Virus record (IMG/VR): IMGVR_UViG_3300032288_001861
Span: 1 to 22,078 of that record
DNA length: 22,078 bases
Direction: 5' to 3' (one strand)
DNA from: a virus
The notes under the pieces were generated by a model. It saw nothing but the letters and a program-made list of their open reading frames with translations, did not search any database and was not told where the DNA came from. How positions within the stretch are numbered: position 1 is the stretch's first letter; each line of letters begins with the position of its first letter. Below are positions 1-12,317 of the stretch, piece by piece. The translations under genes and the position numbers were made by a program.

Positions 1-116
1 AGGATCACGGTTTTGCCCCCACCGGTAGGCAGGCATAGCAGTGGCGCCCGCGCGCCCTGCTGCATTGCGGAGCGCAGATCGCTAATTGCTTGCTGTTGGT
101 AATCCCGCAGGTTCAT
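1..116 (-). CDS. SF2 DEAD/DEAH-type helicase, N-terminus only
   Basis: Only the first 38 codons are in the window; the gene runs off the left edge. The reading frame begins MNLRDYQQQAISDLR, which is the usual start of phage superfamily 2 helicases. It then has a Walker A (motif I) segment, LPTGGGKTV, at about residues 29-37. The ATG at 116 overlaps the upstream stop as ATGA and has GGAG eight bases ahead, so the start is well supported. Proteins of this type unwind DNA with ATP during phage replication, recombination or restriction-like processes. The helicase motifs beyond motif I cannot be seen. It is the last visible member of the minus-strand cassette with the IbrA/IbrB-like genes, which suggests co-expression. 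Confidence 0.85.
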   Translation of the reverse strand, partial: MNLRDYQQQAISDLRSAMQQGARAPLLCLPTGGGKTVI

Positions 117-361
117 AGCGGCAACTCCAGCTGTGTGCCATCTGCGGGGGCACCATGCATAGCGATCTGGGCCATGGTCAGAGCGCGGCGCTGTTGATCG
201 TATGCAGGTCGTGCATAACCAAGTTGGTAGAGGTGCAGATCGTTCTGCAGCAAAGCGATTGCAACGGCCCGCCACGATGGCGCACGCCCTGACGCGGCAA
301 CCTTGGCTGGCACTTCATCGGGGATCTCGTGCGAATAACAACGGGCTTTCCACGTTTGCAC
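113..361 (-). CDS. Stand-alone homologue of the IbrA (DUF3440) C-terminal module
   Basis: This small protein (82 aa from GTG 361) aligns by eye with the last ~60 residues of the IbrA-like protein encoded at 1647-2963. Both have a proline/acid segment (here IPDEVP), then P/T-SW-(K/R), AI..L..ND, a short spacer, LG, and a QQRR basic stretch. The PP-loop part of that family is absent, so this is a separate C-terminal module. The frame stays open to an ATG at 445 (110 aa), but that would overlap the neighbouring gene by 131 bases. GTG at 361 leaves a 47-base overlap and still keeps the whole conserved part. The stop overlaps the helicase start (ATGA). The function is unknown; working with or regulating the full IbrA-like protein is an inference. 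Confidence 0.6.
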   Translation of the reverse strand: MQTWKARCYSHEIPDEVPAKVAASGRAPSWRAVAIALLQNDLHLYQLGYARPAYDQQRRALTMAQIAMHGAPADGTQLELPL

Positions 362-740
362 GTATTCCGAGACTCTGGCGGTAGCGCACCTCCCAGGCGC
401 AAATGGCTCGATCCGCTTGTCGGTTCGCCAATGTCCGTTGCTCATCGGTCAAAAGTCCCCATGCTTGTCTGGTGATGTCTTCAGGGCATCGCAAGGCAAG
501 CGCGCAGGCTGCGTGGCCGATCCATGCCTTGCGGTTCAGGTTGTAGTCGGTTAGTGCATTGATGCAGCTGTTGGGCCACTCCACGGTGACCCGTTGCATG
601 TAGCGCCCGTAAAGGCGGTGATTGCCGGTGAAGATCTGTGCGCGATACAGGGCGATGCGTCGATTTGGCACATCGCCCCACATGTTGAAACCGATCTCTT
701 CCCAAGCATCAATGGGCAACCAGATCCTCTTGAGCTTCAC
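315..740 (-). CDS. Conserved phage protein of unknown function beside IbrA/IbrB genes
   Basis: The protein has 141 aa from GTG 740, or 150 aa from TTG 767. It is rich in Trp, Ala and Arg, with a start region RIWLPIDAWEEIGFNMWGD and a core around NALTDYNLNRKAWIGHAACALA. It has no signal peptide or membrane segment and looks like a compact helical, soluble protein. I have a memory-level impression that similar short proteins sit next to phage PAPS-reductase-like genes, but I cannot name a family. Its 5' end overlaps the cupin-ParB gene (by 32 bases from GTG 740, 59 from TTG 767) and its 3' end overlaps the next small gene, so it belongs to the same translationally linked cassette. The start codon is uncertain because neither candidate has a clear Shine-Dalgarno sequence. 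Confidence 0.7.
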   Translation of the reverse strand: MKLKRIWLPIDAWEEIGFNMWGDVPNRRIALYRAQIFTGNHRLYGRYMQRVTVEWPNSCINALTDYNLNRKAWIGHAACALALRCPEDITRQAWGLLTDEQRTLANRQADRAICAWEVRYRQSLGIRANVESPLLFARDPR

Positions 741-1650
741 GTTCGAGATCTTCTGTGATGTTGTCAATCTGGTCTACGTCCCATGCCTTGCTGAAATCTT
801 TGCCAAGGAACAGCGAGGCCAGTCCGGTGACTTGCTTAAGGCGCAGCAGCTCATCAGGGCTCATGCCGATGTGCTTGCAAATCCATGCGTCGCCTTTACC
901 CATTTCGATCAGCTCGGCAACGATCACGCTCATTAGTTCGATGTTGTGTGAACCACGAGCGCGGTTGTGACGGATGGTTGACGCCATGCGGTCATGGAGC
1001 TCTTTGCGGAGCACAACCACGGGCAATCGGCCGCCTTCGCGTTCGCGGATGCGCTGGCTGTTTTTAAGGGTCAGGAATCGGTGAAAACCGTCAACGACCA
1101 CATAAAGGTCACGCTCGGCATCATGCACGACAACGACAGGTTGCGTGTAACCATCTTCCCAGATAGATGTTTCGAGTAGTGCCATTTCAGGCGGCGCCAC
1201 AGAGTTGGGGTTGTAATCATTGGCGGTAACTTTCTCGATAGGAATACTGCGAACAGAGTAGACCGGGGATCGCCAAGGGTAAGAGTCGTTCTCATCGTGG
1301 AGCTCATCGCCTTTAAGGGGTGGGTTGAATACACAGATCAGCGTGGTGGGCTCTAGGGCCTCAAAGGTATGCGGATCATGTTTGTCCAGCACATAGGTCA
1401 CATCAGGCGCAATGGCGTGGATCTCTTGCGTTGTTTCGTTGATCAGCAGACCTTTGCCGCTGACGCAGTAGCAAGTTTCTAGGTGGTGTTGATAGTGCCA
1501 ACGGTGCGGCTTGCCAGGGTGCACGATGGTTTTAGTCATGCTGTAGCCCATGCCGTCGTCTTCAGTGAGCAAGCGATGGCTGGTAAAGCCGCCCTTTGGG
1601 CAGTTGACAATGCGATCAGCTGGAAGCTGTGAAACGTTGAGGATCTTCAT
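709..1650 (-). CDS. Fusion protein: ectoine-synthase-like cupin plus IbrB/ParB-like domain
   Basis: This is one continuous 313 aa frame with two recognisable parts. Residues 1-125 match the whole length of ectoine synthase EctC, including DDGMG, HYQHHLE, a YCV.G.G turn, YVLDKHDPH and CVFNPPL.G.E.H. By alignment from memory, the EctC iron ligands (Glu57, Tyr85, His93 in the Paenibacillus enzyme) correspond to E58, Y86 and H94. The substrate-side Arg, Tyr, His, Glu and His also appear as R26, Y53, H56, E116 and H118. Residues ~130-300 are an IbrB/ParB-like domain with NDYNPN (144-149), EDGYTQPVVV (165-174), VVDGFHR (185-191) and a STIRHNRARG segment (224-233). The start overlaps the stop of the IbrA-like gene (ATGA), so the pair is translationally coupled. 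EctC normally cyclises N-gamma-acetyl-diaminobutyrate to ectoine, but no other ectoine gene is present; a sensor or modifying role is only an inference. Confidence 0.88.
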   Translation of the reverse strand: MKILNVSQLPADRIVNCPKGGFTSHRLLTEDDGMGYSMTKTIVHPGKPHRWHYQHHLETCYCVSGKGLLINETTQEIHAIAPDVTYVLDKHDPHTFEALEPTTLICVFNPPLKGDELHDENDSYPWRSPVYSVRSIPIEKVTANDYNPNSVAPPEMALLETSIWEDGYTQPVVVVHDAERDLYVVVDGFHRFLTLKNSQRIREREGGRLPVVVLRKELHDRMASTIRHNRARGSHNIELMSVIVAELIEMGKGDAWICKHIGMSPDELLRLKQVTGLASLFLGKDFSKAWDVDQIDNITEDLEREAQEDLVAH

Positions 1651-2963
1651 TTGGCGGAGCGGTTAAGGACTTGGCTGTACTTGCGTTGAATCGATCTTTG
1701 GCGGCGCTGCTGCTCTTGCGTTGGCGCCAGTCCCAGGTATTTGCAGGTGTGATCGTTCTTCAGAACCGTGATAGCAAAGCGCTTCCACGATGTGACCATA
1801 CTGTTGTGACAAGGCAGATCATCGAGATGATCGGGTGGCACCTTGATCACAACACGGCGCAAATTGTTTCCGCCATGCCGTGTGGTGCCATTGATGTAGA
1901 AGCGAATGCCGATACGGCTGAGCGCGTCAATGATCGACTCAGGAAGACCGCGCCCCACCCTGCCCCAGTAGCGGATTGATTGGATGAAGCGCTGCTTAAA
2001 ATTTGCGCTGGACTGATCCGGCAAGGTAGCCAGCAGGAACTTCACAAAGGATTTCCAAGTGTGGCCAGGCGGCAGCCTGAAGGATTTGTAATCAAGCTGC
2101 TTGCCATAGGTGGCCATGAAGTTGGCACCGCCAACGCGGGCGCAAAGCCTGGCCCAGATCTGCGGGTCAATCACCCGGTACATAGCAAGGCTGGATTTGG
2201 ACTCTGACATAAACGGCGAGGCAACCCTCATCTTTTTGATGGGGATACCAGCCATGTAGAACACGTCATAGAGCTTGTTGTAATCCCACCCAAACTTGGC
2301 GTTAGCGGTCCAGATGTCCTCTGTGCGCCAGTCGTAGATCGGATAGCAGTTGTAGGTATGCGCCGTGTTCTTTTTTGTCCACATGCGGCCGAGCATGGTC
2401 TCCTTCTCCTGATTCAGGATTGCCCTGAACCGGTTCAGTGATTCAACGGTGCGGATCCCGATGAGGTTGGCGCAAGGCTCACCTTGGCTGTACCACTCCG
2501 CGAACATGTCCCAAAAGGTGGCGTAGTCCATGTTTTCAATGAACAGATCGCCAAAGGGATGGTTCTGCAGGTTCACAATGTAATCCTGCTGCGGCATGGG
2601 GCGAATCCAGCGATGGCGGTCAGCCTCGCCCCAGCACTGCCAATCAATCTCGTAAGAGCTGACGGTGCAGGGCAGCGTGATGGGGAGGCAGCACCAGTAG
2701 ATGTCGAGGATGTCCCGATTGGCTTCGAGGATGCGGTGCATGAACTCCTCGCTGTGGTTGTAATTGGCTTCGTTGTCCATGATCTGGACGCCAATCTTGA
2801 CCGGCAGCTGTCTGTCTCGTATGTAGTCGCAAACGAGATTCAAGAGAACGCCGCTGTCCTTGCCACCAGAGAAGGAGACGTAGACGCGGGTGAAGTGGGC
2901 AAAGATGAAATCCAGCCGTTCTATGGCGGCGTCGTAGACGGATTGCTCGAGGTACTGGCGCAT
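1647..2963 (-). CDS. IbrA-like PP-loop protein (PAPS reductase family, DUF3440)
   Basis: The 438 aa protein opens with RVYVSFSGGKDSG (PP-loop SGGKDSG at residues 32-38), the ATP-pyrophosphatase signature shared by PAPS reductases, tRNA thiolation enzymes and DndC. Further family features are the GIRT segment near residue 169, CYPIYDWRTEDIW near 206-218, and the C-terminal TSWKR...LKND module at ~391-404. Length and order fit IbrA/DUF3440 proteins, which usually pair with an IbrB ParB-like protein, as here. IbrA and IbrB were named as regulators of Eib surface proteins in E. coli; the biochemical reaction is not established. Nucleotide activation by ATP cleavage is likely from the PP-loop. Sulfur transfer to DNA or RNA is speculation. 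ATG 2963 gives the usual family N-terminus, and the 3' end overlaps the cupin-ParB start. Confidence 0.88.
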   Translation of the reverse strand: MRQYLEQSVYDAAIERLDFIFAHFTRVYVSFSGGKDSGVLLNLVCDYIRDRQLPVKIGVQIMDNEANYNHSEEFMHRILEANRDILDIYWCCLPITLPCTVSSYEIDWQCWGEADRHRWIRPMPQQDYIVNLQNHPFGDLFIENMDYATFWDMFAEWYSQGEPCANLIGIRTVESLNRFRAILNQEKETMLGRMWTKKNTAHTYNCYPIYDWRTEDIWTANAKFGWDYNKLYDVFYMAGIPIKKMRVASPFMSESKSSLAMYRVIDPQIWARLCARVGGANFMATYGKQLDYKSFRLPPGHTWKSFVKFLLATLPDQSSANFKQRFIQSIRYWGRVGRGLPESIIDALSRIGIRFYINGTTRHGGNNLRRVVIKVPPDHLDDLPCHNSMVTSWKRFAITVLKNDHTCKYLGLAPTQEQQRRQRSIQRKYSQVLNRSAK

Positions 2964-3040
2964 GGTGGATGCCGTGGCCAGCTGAACCTAGCAGCATCTG
3001 GCCGCAAGTGCTAGCATTTGGGGGCAACTCGCAATGACTC
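2964..3040. promoter_or_regulatory. Divergent control region between the IbrA cassette and the recombination operon
   Basis: These 77 bases separate two divergently transcribed gene sets and must hold the promoter(s) if both begin here. Two inverted repeats interleave: GGCCAG (2976-2981) with CTGGCC (2998-3003), and CTAGCA (2988-2993) with TGCTAG (3009-3014). The second arm of the latter lies in the 8-base palindrome TGCTAGCA (3009-3016). I could not find a convincing -35/-10 pair on either strand. The palindromes are reasonable candidates for repressor binding, but no phage repressor gene is visible nearby except the small HTH proteins. Confidence 0.45.
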
Positions 3041-3877
3041 ATGGAAAACGCCGACTATCACCGGCATTGGGCGGTGAGCAAGTCCGGCCTTGATCAGATC
3101 GCTAAGAGCCCCCTTCACTACTGGGCACGCTTTCTTGATCCTGATCGCGTCTGGACAGAGGCCACACCAGCCATGCGCCTCGGCACTGCGCTACATACGC
3201 ACGTGCTGGAGCTGAGCAAATGGGATGAGCAAATCGCCGTTGCTCCTATTGACATCAACCGCCGCACCAAGGAAGGGCGCGAGCAATGGGCAGCGTTTGA
3301 AGCTGCTGCCAAGCGCAAAACCGTGATCACCGCCGACGACGCCCAGCAAGTCATGGCCATGGGCCGTGCTGTGCTGCGTCACCCTGCTGCAGCAATGCTG
3401 CTAGGGCTGCCGGGCAAGGCTGAAACCACTCACATGTGGACTGATGCCAGCACCGGGCTCGAGTGCAAGTGTCGGCCGGATTGGCTGACCGATGACGGCA
3501 GCATCGTGGTGGATCTCAAGACCACCAAGGACGCCAGCCCGCGTGGCTTCAAGCAAAGCGTGGCCAATTTTGCCTGCCACAAGCAGGCTGCTTGGTATCT
3601 GCACGGACTTGAGCAGGCCACCGGTCGCCGGCCCGATCAGTTCATCTTCATCTGCGTGGAATCCACCGCGCCGTATGCCGTGGCGGTCTATGCCGCCGAT
3701 GCGGAGATGGTCGAGCGCGGGCACGATCAGGCCATGCGCGATTTGGCGAAATTGGCGATTTGCAAGGCCGCTGATCACTGGCCGAGCTACAGCGATCAGA
3801 TCGAAACCATCAGCCTGCCTGCTTGGATGACGGGCGCCACAGGCCAGCAGCAGACCACTGAGATCGAGACCTACTAA
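3041..3877 (+). CDS. RecB-family PD-(D/E)XK exonuclease, RecE/exonuclease VIII-like
   Basis: The 278 aa protein carries the RecB-nuclease motif series in order. LGTALH gives the conserved His (H52), RPD gives the first metal Asp (D147), VVDLK gives the D-x-K pair (D158, K160), and QAAWY gives the Q-x-x-x-Y motif (Q182-Y186). Its size and the opening Y.....SKS.L.....SP.HYWAR fit phage exonuclease VIII-like (DUF3799) proteins. Such enzymes resect one strand of duplex DNA to make single strands for the annealing protein. The next gene is exactly such an annealing protein, and the two overlap by one base (TAATG), so this is a RecE/RecT-type pair. ATG 3041 has only a G-rich run about 11-12 bases ahead as a possible ribosome site. 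Confidence 0.88.
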   Translation: MENADYHRHWAVSKSGLDQIAKSPLHYWARFLDPDRVWTEATPAMRLGTALHTHVLELSKWDEQIAVAPIDINRRTKEGREQWAAFEAAAKRKTVITADDAQQVMAMGRAVLRHPAAAMLLGLPGKAETTHMWTDASTGLECKCRPDWLTDDGSIVVDLKTTKDASPRGFKQSVANFACHKQAAWYLHGLEQATGRRPDQFIFICVESTAPYAVAVYAADAEMVERGHDQAMRDLAKLAICKAADHWPSYSDQIETISLPAWMTGATGQQQTTEIETY

Positions 3878-4557
3878 TGGATCCACAATCAGCCATCACA
3901 ACCCAGCCCACCGGCTCAGTGTTCTCTGGTATCCAAGCATTCGAGGATGCGCAACGGATCGCCAAGGCACTGGCCAGTAGCACGTTGATTCCGCCTCAGT
4001 TCCAAGGGCAGCAGGGTTTTGCTAACTGCCTGGTCGCGCTTGAGATTGCAGGCCGGATGGGCATCAGCCCATTCTTGGCGATGCAGCATCTGCACGTGAT
4101 CCACGGCCGCCCATCGTGGAGCAGCAGCTTCATCATTGCGATGGTGAACGGCTGCGGCCGGTTCAGCCCATTGCGGTTCGAGCTCAGCGGTGAAGGTGAC
4201 TCGCTTGCCTGCTATGCCGTGGCTACCGATCTCGCCAGCGACCAGGAGCTGAAGGGTCCATCCATCACGATGGCGATGGCCAAGAAGGAAGGATGGGCCA
4301 CCAAGAGCGGCAGCAAGTGGCTGACCATGCCAGAGCTGATGATCCGCTACCGCGCCGCTGCGTTCTGGGGTCGTCTGTACGCGAGTGACATGCTGCTGGG
4401 TATGCAAAGCCAGGAGGAGGTGCTCGACGTGCAGCCCGTCACGGTGACCGCAGCACCAGCGGCCAGCATTGCGGATCTGAACGATGCCATCGTGCAGCCG
4501 GTGCCAGCGGCACCCGTTGCAGCACCCGTTGAGGCGGATCAGGATGAACTCTTCTAG
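3877..4557 (+). CDS. recT: RecT-like single-strand DNA annealing protein
   Basis: The 226 aa protein has the typical phage RecT-like core. It contains a segment NCLVALEIAGRMGISPFLAMQ, then HGRPSWSSSFIIA, CGRFSPLRFE, a GPSITMAMAKKEGW block, and the final MPELMIRYRAAAFWGRLYA. RecT-family proteins anneal complementary single strands made by a partner 5'-3' exonuclease, which is the gene just upstream. The last ~40 residues form an Ala/Pro/Val-rich flexible linker ending in the acidic tip ADQDELF. This resembles the SSB C-terminal hook and may bind other replication proteins. The start overlaps the nuclease stop by one base. The 3' end overlaps the next HTH gene by 14 bases. Confidence 0.88.
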   Translation: MDPQSAITTQPTGSVFSGIQAFEDAQRIAKALASSTLIPPQFQGQQGFANCLVALEIAGRMGISPFLAMQHLHVIHGRPSWSSSFIIAMVNGCGRFSPLRFELSGEGDSLACYAVATDLASDQELKGPSITMAMAKKEGWATKSGSKWLTMPELMIRYRAAAFWGRLYASDMLLGMQSQEEVLDVQPVTVTAAPAASIADLNDAIVQPVPAAPVAAPVEADQDELF

Positions 4558-6526: not shown

Positions 6527-6755
6527 AATGAAAGGCGCACTCTTCCAGTGGCGCACTGATGCAGAACAGGTCGGCAACTATGGCGAAGGTGTCAGCCGAC
6601 CACGTCACAATGCCCGCGTGCGTGATTTCAAAGTCACCATCCGATTCCGGGATGCACGGCCAATCACGTGGTACACGCGCGCCGAATCAAAGCGCGCTGC
6701 TGAGAAGTACGCGCGCAACCGCTGGCCAAATGCCTACGCAGTGGAGGTCGAATGA
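6519..6755 (+). CDS. Small basic phage protein, unknown
   Basis: The 78 aa protein is basic, with a region VRDFKVTIRFRDARPITWYT followed by a helix RAESKRAAEKYARNRWP. The strand-turn-helix layout and abundance of Arg/Lys would suit nucleic-acid contact, but there is no recognised domain. The start ATGGCTGA is a variant of the octamer junction, overlapping the upstream stop by 8 bases. The stop overlaps the RlpA-like gene (ATGA). Confidence 0.65.
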   Translation: MAEMKGALFQWRTDAEQVGNYGEGVSRPRHNARVRDFKVTIRFRDARPITWYTRAESKRAAEKYARNRWPNAYAVEVE

Positions 6756-7075
6756 TCCGCGCTGCTTTGATCGCCGCGGCCCTGCTGCTGGCCAGCCCGG
6801 TGCAGTCGCGGCAGGTGACAGCAACCGTATATGCAACCGAGTTTCACGGCCGCACCACGTACTGCGGCGGCACCTACCAGCACTGGGGCATCAGCGCGGC
6901 GCATCCATGGCTGCCCTGCGGCACGCCGGTGCGAGTCAGCCACCGCGGCCGCACGCTGACGGTGCGCGTCACCGATCGGTGTGACTGCGGCTCGATCGAT
7001 CTCAGCGCCGGTGCTGCGCATCGCCTTGGTGTGCCGCTGGATGGCATCGCAACCGTTCACATTTCTCACCAATGA
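6752..7075 (+). CDS. Secreted RlpA-like double-psi beta-barrel protein
   Basis: The 107 aa protein has a clear signal peptide (residues 1-~19: MIRAALIAAALLLASPVQS). A compact double-psi beta-barrel of RlpA/expansin type follows. It begins at VTATVYATEFHGRTT, continues through TPVRVSHRGRTLTVRVTDRCDCG and closes with IDLSAGAAHRLGVPLDGIATV, where TDR and IDLS are the usual landmarks. Four cysteines (two around residues 38-56, two in DRCDCG) suggest disulfides in the periplasm. RlpA-like proteins bind or cleave peptidoglycan glycans. The SPOR domain of bacterial RlpA is absent. Its presence among early small genes, away from the lysis genes, suggests an envelope-modifying accessory role. Confidence 0.85.
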   Translation: MIRAALIAAALLLASPVQSRQVTATVYATEFHGRTTYCGGTYQHWGISAAHPWLPCGTPVRVSHRGRTLTVRVTDRCDCGSIDLSAGAAHRLGVPLDGIATVHISHQ

Positions 7076-8582: not shown

Positions 8583-8764
8583 GCCGGCCGTTCAAGCGCG
8601 GTGAGGACAACGTTGCCGTGATCCTGAGCGAGGAGCTGGTGCGCGAGCTACGCCAGCTTCGTGCTGATGGGTTGAGCTATCAAAAACTTGCTGATCGCTA
8701 CGAGATCGACAAAAAACATGCATGGCGCATCTGTCAACGCATCGCATGGAGCTGGCTCGAATGA
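8579..8764 (+). CDS. Mini helix-turn-helix protein
   Basis: From ATG 8579 the 61 aa protein has a helix LSEELVRELRQLRADGLSYQ. A helix-turn-helix follows, KLADRYEIDKKHAWRICQ, matching the HTH part of resolvases and of HNH-associated or terminase small-subunit-like proteins. It consists of this DNA-binding part only. It likely acts as a small regulator or adaptor; the target is unknown. The ATGA overlap with the upstream stop supports this start over the longer frame from 8573. Confidence 0.7.
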   Translation: MSRPFKRGEDNVAVILSEELVRELRQLRADGLSYQKLADRYEIDKKHAWRICQRIAWSWLE

Positions 8765-8982
8765 CCGACCCAATCAACCCATCGCACTACCGCCGCGGCC
8801 CAGTCGAGGCGATCGACGTGATCGAGGCAGCCGTCACCGATGCGCCTCACATGGTGCCCGCATACCTGCAGGGCCAGGCGCTGAAATATCTGCTGCGCAT
8901 CTGGTGCAAGGGCAACGCGCTCGAGGATGCCCGTAAGTGCCAGTGGTATCTCGCCCGTCTTATCGCCAAACTGGAGGGATGA
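8761..8982 (+). CDS. DUF3310-like phage protein
   Basis: The 73 aa protein reads INPSHYRRGPVEAIDVIEAA, then AYLQGQALKYLLRIWCKGN, then EDARKCQWYLARLI. These are the conserved blocks of DUF3310 (P-SHY....EAIDVI, G.ALKYL.R...K...D..K...YL..L). The family is widespread in phages and sometimes fused to nucleotide-metabolism domains. Its reaction is not established, though a nucleotide-related role has been proposed from those fusions. The length equals a single complete domain. It is coupled by ATGA at both ends. Confidence 0.82.
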   Translation: MTDPINPSHYRRGPVEAIDVIEAAVTDAPHMVPAYLQGQALKYLLRIWCKGNALEDARKCQWYLARLIAKLEG

Positions 8983-11237: not shown

Positions 11238-12317
11238 TCAATAATCCCAGCGCACCTTAGGGCGGCCAGAGCGGATGCCCAGATGCACAAATCCTTTATA
11301 TGCGCCATAGCCGAGCGAGAACGGCCAATGCTTATCGCACCAGTTCTGCACGACGTAAGTGTCCTCACCATCGATGTAGAAATCGACTGCGCCACATCCC
11401 GGCTGATACAGATGCTCGCTGTTGCTGGCACCACCAGCCTGCCGGTTGATCGCCTCAGGCCGATAGCCGGATGTGATCACGATTGGTCGCCCACCAAACT
11501 GCACGCGCACCCGTTCAAGGAATACTGCTAGTTCTGCAGCAATATCGAGCTGGCTCTGATTCTGAAAGCGCCTAGCCTCCTGATCAAGCGCAAATTCCCC
11601 CAGCCTGATGTGCGGCGTGATCCTGGCCGTGAATGGGCTGCCGGGCCGCAGCTTCGCGGTCTCTGGTTCGGCTATGGCTTGATGCTGCCCCCAGAGTTTG
11701 CCCTCAGCACGGCGCCGGCGCAGCAGGCCAGCCTCAACGTTGGTGCCGGGGTTGCGGTAAAGCTCAAGCGCTGCGGGCACTGCGGCCCAGTCACGGTCAC
11801 ACAGGCACTTGCTGATGGTTTCAAATCCAGCGGTGCCGTAGAAACCAGCGCCCAGGTTGTAGGCGAAGCTCACCAACGCCGAGCGCTGGTTGTCATCCAT
11901 CACATTCCAATGCGGCACGGTGGTGCGCAGCTTGTCGGTGATGCGGTCGATCTCAAGGCGCAGGAGCATGTCGGCCTCGATCACGTTGATCATGTCGCCG
12001 CGTTTTACGGGCGTGCCGTTGCTGTAGCGCGTGGTGCCATAGCCGATGGTCCACGGGTCGCCATTGCTGAGCGGATCGGGGTATGCGCTTAGGTGACAGC
12101 CCTCGAACTCTTTAATCAGCTTGATGGCGCCGGCCAGATCGGTTTGTTTGCCGTCTTGACTCCACGTCTGGAACCAGTCCCGATCGCGCCGCATCACTGC
12201 GTCGTATGTATTGGCGGCCAGCTCAGCCTCTAGCTGTTGAATCGCAGCAGTCTGATGCGGCAGTGCTTTGTAGTACTTGAACAGCTGTTGCAGCGTGATC
12301 GGTGCATCGTTCGCCAT
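11238..12317 (-). CDS. Two-domain endolysin: GH24 lysozyme plus M15 peptidase
   Basis: The 359 aa protein has a ~60 aa helical N-terminal part. A T4-type lysozyme domain (about 62-215) follows, with the catalytic Glu in EFEG (E72), the Asp of YPDP (D81) and the Thr of WTIGYG (T90), plus the later QRSALVSFAYNLG segment. The second enzyme is a C-terminal M15 peptidase (about 225-359): SGYRPEAINRQAGGASNSEH, CGAVDF and FVHLGI give the metal ligands H302, D312 and H345. It would cut both the glycan and the peptide part of peptidoglycan for lysis. There is no signal peptide, so it needs a holin; small membrane proteins lie just upstream. ATG 12317 sits 3 bases after the preceding stop. Confidence 0.9.
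   Translation of the reverse strand: MANDAPITLQQLFKYYKALPHQTAAIQQLEAELAANTYDAVMRRDRDWFQTWSQDGKQTDLAGAIKLIKEFEGCHLSAYPDPLSNGDPWTIGYGTTRYSNGTPVKRGDMINVIEADMLLRLEIDRITDKLRTTVPHWNVMDDNQRSALVSFAYNLGAGFYGTAGFETISKCLCDRDWAAVPAALELYRNPGTNVEAGLLRRRRAEGKLWGQHQAIAEPETAKLRPGSPFTARITPHIRLGEFALDQEARRFQNQSQLDIAAELAVFLERVRVQFGGRPIVITSGYRPEAINRQAGGASNSEHLYQPGCGAVDFYIDGEDTYVVQNWCDKHWPFSLGYGAYKGFVHLGIRSGRPKVRWDY

Follow-up and report, generated by a model that had tools for sequence, protein, structure and literature searches.

What does a compact block of overlapping genes, carried by phages among their recombination and replication genes, do for the phage that bears it? We examined this question in a 22,078-base virus record (positions 1 to 22,078 of IMGVR_UViG_3300032288_001861), the whole of which we call the window. 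Five frames were found in its first 3 kb, all on the minus strand, and an earlier note had described them as one cassette encoding IbrA, a fusion of a cupin to the ParB-like protein IbrB, a protein of no assigned function, a copy of the IbrA tail, and a superfamily 2 (SF2) helicase. These frames and their domain calls were recovered (DUF3440 and Ectoine_synth, with ParB_N below threshold), and the cassette proved to comprise the first four genes. Comparative sequence analysis gives good support to an assembly of these four genes as a fixed module with its own protein family. The interpretation that we favour, and hold tentatively, is that they are a self-contained, exchangeable phage module whose products would act as one multi-subunit complex that chemically modifies DNA or a DNA precursor. 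The cassette consists of the following features.

1647..2963, minus strand: IbrA, a PP-loop (SGGKDS) ATP-pyrophosphatase-fold protein with DUF3440 and a near-invariant Cys407 (Pfam, PHROGs, AlphaFold2 model, residue survey)
709..1650, minus strand: cupin-ParB fusion gene (open reading frame)
1273..1650, minus strand: ectoine-synthase-like cupin domain of the fusion (NCBIfam PRK13290, PDB 5bxx, residue surveys)
712..1260, minus strand: IbrB part of the fusion, a ParB/Srx-type domain and a helix-turn-helix (HTH)-like region (phrog_2159, alignment)
315..740, minus strand: all-helical protein of 141 residues (GTG start; the longest frame begins at TTG 767)
113..445, minus strand: tail, a 110-residue copy of the IbrA C-terminal segment that lacks the conserved cysteine (alignment, bit scores, cysteine site)

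Loci were collected from IMG/VR with pattern scans from three anchors, and all counts refer to the loci kept: the best 80 of 274 relatives for IbrA, the best 80 of 350 for the 141-residue protein (to which two distant queries added 16 and 80), and the best 80 of 186 for the helicase. The cassette gene order recurs across IMG/VR beyond chance. ParB was matched in all 176 loci anchored on the 141-residue family and IbrA in 175; with each distinct sequence scored in one locus, IbrA and ParB accompanied 150 of 150 family members, as the earlier note's grouping of these genes had implied, and all three genes lay within 4 kb on one strand in 149. Two architectures were found, one in the order IbrA, ParB, 141-residue gene (68 of 150, the cupin matched in 67) and the other in the order ParB, 141-residue gene, IbrA (82 of 150, the cupin matched in 3). 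In the phage collection the 141-residue gene occurred in six records of five phages, all of which also had IbrA. Fusions further connect the components: ParB and the 141-residue domain share a stop-to-stop frame in 26 cases (23 distinct), the 141-residue and tail domains are fused in locus L348, and the cupin and ParB share one frame in 150 cases, a number that includes repeat contig copies, while in L161, L164 and phage XCL1123 they are two neighbouring genes. Small overlapping genes are common in phages, which would suit genes that are only neighbours in a replication module and otherwise unconnected; we consider this very improbable, as it is contradicted by the invariable co-occurrence, the two orders, the fusions, and the repeated gain and loss of the genes en bloc described below.

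From IbrA to the helicase, successive overlaps measure 4, 32, 131, and 4 bases; the third replaces the 47 bases of the earlier note, which had been counted from an internal GTG, because the tail starts at ATG 445. Read from this codon, the tail protein has Met1, Trp6, and Gly18 invariant in 19 aligned sequences (the window included), and the junction of the 141-residue gene and the tail shows an overlap of 113-143 bases in 70 of 76 distinct loci. Of the 76 IbrA-anchored loci with both genes, 73 read ATGA at the IbrA/cupin junction. This junction anatomy makes translational coupling of the cassette genes likely.

The cassette is surrounded by recombination and replication genes, and its immediate flanks define a slot.

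1..116, minus strand: start of the SF2 helicase (ATG at 116; the gene exits the window), a flanking resident gene outside the cassette
2964..3040, no strand: divergent gap of 77 bases between IbrA and the exonuclease, the upstream edge of the slot
3041-3877, plus strand: RecE-like exonuclease (phrog_412), flank on the other side of the slot
3877-4557, plus strand: RecT-like annealing protein (phrog_561), flank on the other side of the slot

Among the 80 helicase-anchored loci, this exonuclease/helicase slot is empty in 40 (39-51 base pairs, bp, between profile matches), contains the four-gene cassette in 17 (2,882-2,916 bp), and contains a protein of roughly 790 residues in 14 (2,338-2,342 bp). 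The one member of the 790-residue cluster that was typed combines an SF2 helicase and an N6/N4 DNA methyltransferase in a single protein (phrog_16/phrog_67), so that in sister phages the same slot is taken by a one-gene modification enzyme, a protein unrelated to the cassette. No helicase-anchored locus (0 of 80) contained both cargoes, and no match to the 790-residue cluster was found in the 80 IbrA-anchored loci. In the cultured relative S-LBS1, a gene annotated as a DNA modification methylase adjoins an SF2 helicase. On a quickly built helicase tree, slot content changed at least 22 times, cassette presence at least 11 times, and methyltransferase presence at least 5 times. That the cassette and a DNA methyltransferase replace each other in one slot suggests that the cassette acts on DNA, and lends some support to the DNA- or nucleotide-modification role that the earlier note had offered beside defence and anti-defence. 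That note had also counted the helicase as the fifth member of the cassette, which we reject: in 63 of the 80 helicase-anchored loci the resident helicase has no cassette beside it, and a distance of at most 400 bp separates a helicase of these types from the cassette in 40 of 51 loci of the window's lineage, compared with 0 of 13 and 7 of 48 outside it. A relative is of the ResIII type (Pfam). As for other occupants, the slot cargo of L433 and L425 includes phrog_4652 proteins of unknown function, and the slots of L466, L464, and L420 share a protein of 341-354 residues, the L466 copy of which has no Pfam or PHROG match.

The cassette might instead be a defence or anti-defence system of the phage, directed at nucleotides or at the DNA of competing phages, which it would attack or deplete while leaving the phage's own DNA unmarked. 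This would suit its optional carriage, with 11 changes of presence on the helicase tree, and its slot, which methyltransferases can also occupy; in addition, ParB/Srx domains are described as able to act as nucleoside triphosphatases or nucleases (PMC5512222). We regard such a system as unlikely here, given that a nuclease or toxin domain was recognised in none of the four proteins with Pfam and PHROGs and that PADLOC returned only weak matches (DndC and BrxP), to IbrA alone.

The largest cassette protein, IbrA, matches DUF3440 with 182.7 bits against a cut-off of 25 (E 7e-54) and PAPS_reduct with E 8e-9 in Pfam, and corresponds to phrog_2302 (E 2e-107), which PHROGs places as 3′-phosphoadenosine-5′-phosphosulfate (PAPS) reductase. 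The PP-loop domain of its AlphaFold2 model (mean predicted local distance difference test, pLDDT, 85) is nearest to the PAPS domain of flavin adenine dinucleotide synthase (Z 15.2, 170 residues, 3.4 Å), followed by CysD (Z 14.2) and the reductases of PAPS or adenosine-5′-phosphosulfate (APS), CysH (Z about 14), with TilS-type, NcsA, LarE, and TtuA enzymes further behind; these neighbours from the structure searches, Foldseek included, are adenylating or thiolating PP-loop enzymes. In a survey of 240 distinct IbrA sequences (162 phage, 77 bacterial, and the window), the PP-loop S[GA]GKDS was present in all 240 (SGGKDS in 219, SAGKDS in 21), Cys407 was retained in 238, and Cys92 in 220. PAPS/APS reductases carry the C-terminal catalytic motif ECG[LIMV]H, and the corresponding ECGxH was found in 0 of the 240. 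We therefore rejected IbrA as a PAPS reductase, although the PP-loop fold is present, and on these motifs the PAPS-reductase label misfits phage IbrA. DUF3440 itself exceeded its cut-off in only 1 of 198 genomes of the phylum of genome G002, which was the centre genome itself.

The cupin domain scores above the ectoine-synthase cut-off (PRK13290, 136.1 bits versus 128 in NCBIfam; Ectoine_synth, 127.5 versus 27 in Pfam, E 5e-37) and aligns to PDB 5bxx with E 2.6e-25 and approximately 40% identity over 110 residues, as counted from the alignment. The iron ligands of ectoine synthase are given as Glu-57, Tyr-84, and His-92 (PMC6344544), and the window cupin has E58, Y86, and H94 at these positions, with F22 at the Trp-21 site and T39 at the position-38 site. 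We surveyed 83 distinct phage cupin domains (27 groups at 80% identity): like the ectoine synthase EctC, all 83 keep the iron ligands as well as S23, R25, T40, and Y52, whereas they differ from it in their fusion to ParB, in the absence of Trp-21 from every one (Phe in 75, Met in 1, gapped in 7), and at position 38, which is mostly Thr (Thr in 76, His in 5). Replacement of Trp-21 by Ala is reported to leave 9.7% of activity, and Asn-38 is listed as conserved (both PMC6344544); position 38 is instead His in 5bxx and in most controls. Because Trp-21 is changed, we have not filed the phage cupin as an ectoine synthase.

Bacterial EctC proteins served as controls (249 genomes of one phylum, of which 35 gave 41 matches). 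Among the 30 best-scoring, 29 had Trp-21 and 29 had His or Asn at position 38. A second control took 8 of the remaining 11, excluding two fragments from G240 and one sub-threshold match; these lower-scoring or second-copy proteins had Trp-21 in 2, Gly in 5, and Phe in 1, and Cys (5) or His (3) at position 38. Overall, Trp-21 was kept in 31 of 38 (1 of the other 7 being gapped at the site) and the iron ligands in 37 of 38, L477 having Gln at Glu-57. Five of the lower-scoring proteins, L470-L474, have Gly in place of Trp-21 and Cys at 38 together with an intact iron site and, on their sequences, form a distinct EctC-like group. The residue patterns indicate that the phage cupin resembles part of the solitary EctC-like proteins, with the iron site retained and the pocket different from the canonical one. 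The idea that Trp-21 and position 38 mark a substrate change peculiar to phages is weakened by the loss of Trp-21 in some bacterial solitary EctC-like proteins. The function of solitary EctC is left open in a review (PMC5924519).

The metabolic filing of phrog_2302 raises another explanation, in which small molecules are the substrates of IbrA and the cupin, in sulfur assimilation or in the making of an ectoine-like solute, and the genes serve as an auxiliary metabolic module that aids infected cells. PHROGs lists the family under auxiliary metabolic genes, a biogas virome paper counts phage PAPS reductases among metabolic genes (PMC8879888; these may or may not be of the IbrA family), and the cupin exceeds the ectoine-synthase cut-off. 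We nevertheless judge this explanation improbable, considering the absence of ECGxH from IbrA, the absence of Trp-21 from the phage cupins (with the 7 gapped cases among them), and a ParB-like fusion and a location among recombination genes that point to DNA.

The IbrB part of the fusion matches phrog_2159 with E 3e-77. Its ParB/Srx-type domain has DGFHR and IRHNRARG blocks, and the HTH-like region was read by eye; ParB_N was sub-threshold on the fusion (22.3 versus 26.3 bits in Pfam) and the canonical ParB score was not reached (TIGR00180, 18.2 bits versus a cut-off of 58.45). ParB folds are described as binding several nucleotides, CTP, ATP, or GTP (PMC12704722), which would also fit a nucleotide-switched DNA-binding regulator: the cupin-IbrB protein would be a ParB-type clamp or switch with a cupin that senses a small molecule, IbrA would supply or read the nucleotide, and phage or host transcription would be controlled. 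In line with this, IbrA and IbrB are called co-activators of prophage gene expression in PMC4490671, IbrAB is described as activating eib genes in E. coli (Sandt 2002, as cited in PMC6008420), and E. coli ybdNM is presented in PMC9068703 as a CitR-repressed operon in which YbdM is a predicted transcription factor. A pure regulator has no obvious need for the PP-loop (240 of 240), Cys407 (238 of 240), or the cupin iron site (83 of 83), and the cassette swaps with a DNA methyltransferase in its slot; we consider regulation as such the main alternative, credible but doubtful on balance. A modification that alters transcription would reconcile the two explanations.

For the 141-residue protein, an AlphaFold2 model was all-helical (pLDDT 92.8), and searches of PDB with it yielded no relative among solved structures (best E 5.0; best Z 3.8). 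A viral structure library gave one match, 57% identical (A0A649V0K8, E 1.8e-10). The lack of a solved relative does not make the fold new. With 52 family members as queries, Pfam gave only scattered matches at E 0.016 or worse, and PHROGs matched one member to each of two unnamed families. The window tail protein scores 42 bits against the IbrA tail of L241, which has the second architecture, versus 22 bits against its own IbrA. The Cys407-site motif is visible in 69 of 71 distinct separate tails, with Cys in 0 of the 69 and Leu in 64. The loss of the cysteine at this site makes the tail look like a copy of the IbrA C-terminus without catalytic function.

Bacterial IbrA/IbrB, as in E. coli ECOR-9 and as YbdN/YbdM in K-12, likewise pair a DUF3440 PP-loop protein with an adjacent ParB-like protein. 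A bacterial genome scan with the IbrB alignment gave at least 578 relatives, and in the best 80, to which the bacterial counts here apply, IbrA was matched in 80 of 80 loci. The cupin and the 141-residue gene were found in only 2 of the 80, L161 (a Planctomycetota metagenome-assembled genome, in which phage-like genes were seen by eye) and L164 (a Saprospiraceae metagenome-assembled genome); both may be phage contigs binned with those genomes. In 31 of 80 loci a SNF2-type helicase was present (3 of 3 members typed match SNF2), which means that in bacteria, too, IbrAB can be accompanied by a helicase, one of a different type, and in 36 of 80 there was a small GNAT-like gene (GNAT by Pfam in 1 of 3 typed). 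Operons in the order SNF2 helicase, IbrA, GNAT-like gene, IbrB occur at L185:2889-6011 and L178:2878-5990. The ectoine pathway likewise includes a GNAT, EctA, which would pair with the phage EctC-like cupin. The 141-residue protein was rejected as a distant form of the bacterial small GNAT-like gene (profile comparison probability 0.2%). Eight other neighbour families typed with Pfam were mostly metabolic or housekeeping (LpxK, MutL, a citrate transporter, and others), and none of the eight was a recognised defence family; one belonged to the PD-(D/E)XK superfamily.

Two phages provide the closest named counterparts. Mycobacterium phage Gaia (gp103-107, IbrA 69% identical) and Pseudoalteromonas phage XCL1123 (IbrA 66% identical) have all four parts in the same order, and both sets have been published as annotation ("PAPS reductase; ectoine synthase/ParB multidomain protein"). 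They differ from the window in that Gaia has one extra gene, gp105 (L002 9197-9571), between IbrB and the 141-residue gene, in that the cupin and ParB are two genes in XCL1123, and in that neither has an SF2 helicase annotated directly after the tail. The Nebkiss counterpart of gp105 is annotated as a GIY-YIG-like endonuclease.

Dnd systems, to which the earlier note had rightly seen only a loose likeness, also combine a PP-loop enzyme of the PAPS-reductase superfamily with a member of the ParB superfamily, DndB (PMC12839542, PMC10853773). The matches of DndC models to IbrA are weak (PADLOC, E 3e-7; TIGR03183, 20.6 bits versus a cut-off of 290.4), and DndA/IscS, DndD, and DndE were not recognised among the window proteins typed, which come from part of the frames of a window that may be a fragment. 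To our knowledge, neither the cupin nor the 141-residue protein has a counterpart in Dnd.

From the composition, order, co-occurrence, fusions, conserved residues, and methyltransferase slot exchange of the four genes, all evident in the sequences, we infer a complex, its action on DNA, and the following chemistry. The PP-loop of IbrA would activate a substrate oxygen with ATP, and Cys407 would join in the transfer, as in PP-loop enzymes that transfer sulfur or amines. IbrB, with its ParB-like nucleotide-binding domain and HTH-like part, would keep the complex on DNA; the 141-residue helical protein may be a partner or domain of IbrB; and the cysteine-less 110-residue tail would shape or dock the complex. 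The iron cupin, as a relative of ectoine synthase, would perform a second, iron-dependent step. A more specific and speculative version, which we think improbable as it stands, is that the product is an undescribed DNA mark, for which IbrA would use ATP to activate a base or backbone oxygen and would introduce a group containing sulfur or nitrogen, and the re-purposed cupin would close this into a ring (a cyclic amidine) with iron-assisted loss of water, ParB and the 141-residue protein holding the machinery on DNA; sister phages would use ordinary methylation in the same slot. We know of no modification made by a PP-loop enzyme plus a ring-closing cupin.

Several observations weigh against modification by such a complex. 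Cys92 is gone from 20 of 240 IbrA sequences, and a two-cysteine mechanism is therefore not universal. In the window genes that were typed, neither a sulfur donor nor a Dnd partner was recognised, and IbrAB is described as activating eib genes. The slot contains other cargo, mostly of unknown function, in 9 of 80 helicase-anchored loci. The absence of overlap between cassette and methyltransferase has a chance probability of 0.025, uncorrected for kinship, and is in part trivial, since slots tend to contain a single cargo. We found a C5 DNA methyltransferase in 4 of 80 IbrA-anchored and 6 of 80 helicase-anchored loci, and its presence in the former means that the cassette is not always a methyltransferase stand-in. 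With regard to the cupin, the loss of Trp-21 is not phage-specific, being shared by 6 of the 8 additional bacterial EctC-like proteins, and ectoine was reportedly produced when a solitary EctC of P. syringae was expressed in an ectC mutant (PMC5924519). Because of these two points, a changed substrate of the phage cupin is a guess. The altered-pocket argument is weaker than we initially held, and the main argument consists of the slot exchange and the assembly.

Other features of the window bear on the virus as a whole. Its large tail protein has 75%, 68%, and 45% identity to those of Synechococcus phages S-CBS3, S-CBS1, and S-LBS1 (over 82-83% of its length), and because of this resemblance the host is probably a picocyanobacterium. 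The gap at 2964-3040, like the same gap in L390-L393 and L399, contains a (C)AGATGCTAGC / CCAGATGCTGCTAGG repeat, which is also partly present in the methyltransferase-slot locus L398. The repeat is possibly a phage promoter element. A promoter and terminator scan gave 0 promoter-like sites and terminators at background level, and a tRNA scan gave none. Elsewhere, an endolysin at 11238-12317 combines phage lysozyme and peptidase M15 domains in one protein, a small double-psi beta-barrel (DPBB_1) lytic-transglycosylase-like protein lies at 6752-7075 among plus-strand genes, and a small protein at 8722-8982 has a "nucleotide kinase" match in PHROGs that spans approximately 80 residues only.

Public records already contain the pairing of IbrA with IbrB and the name "ectoine synthase/ParB". 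In the open-licence papers searched, we found nothing on a cupin-ParB fusion or a four-gene module, nor on the 141-residue family and the ParB fusions of its members, the tail copy that has no cysteine, or the exchange with a methyltransferase in the slot; no biochemical function of IbrAB was found in this literature either. In the main text of a survey of ParB folds (PMC12704722), the terms cupin, ectoine, PAPS, and IbrB never occur. A Thermus phage paper remarks that phage PAPS-reductase homologues merit further study (PMC11437467; these, too, may or may not be of the IbrA family). Taken together, our analysis describes a cassette that comes and goes as a block in a slot also used by a DNA methyltransferase, and that joins four parts, among them an unusual ectoine-synthase-like domain. 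It thereby turns a vague PAPS-reductase annotation into a directly testable question, namely whether phage DNA contains a nucleoside that depends on the cassette.

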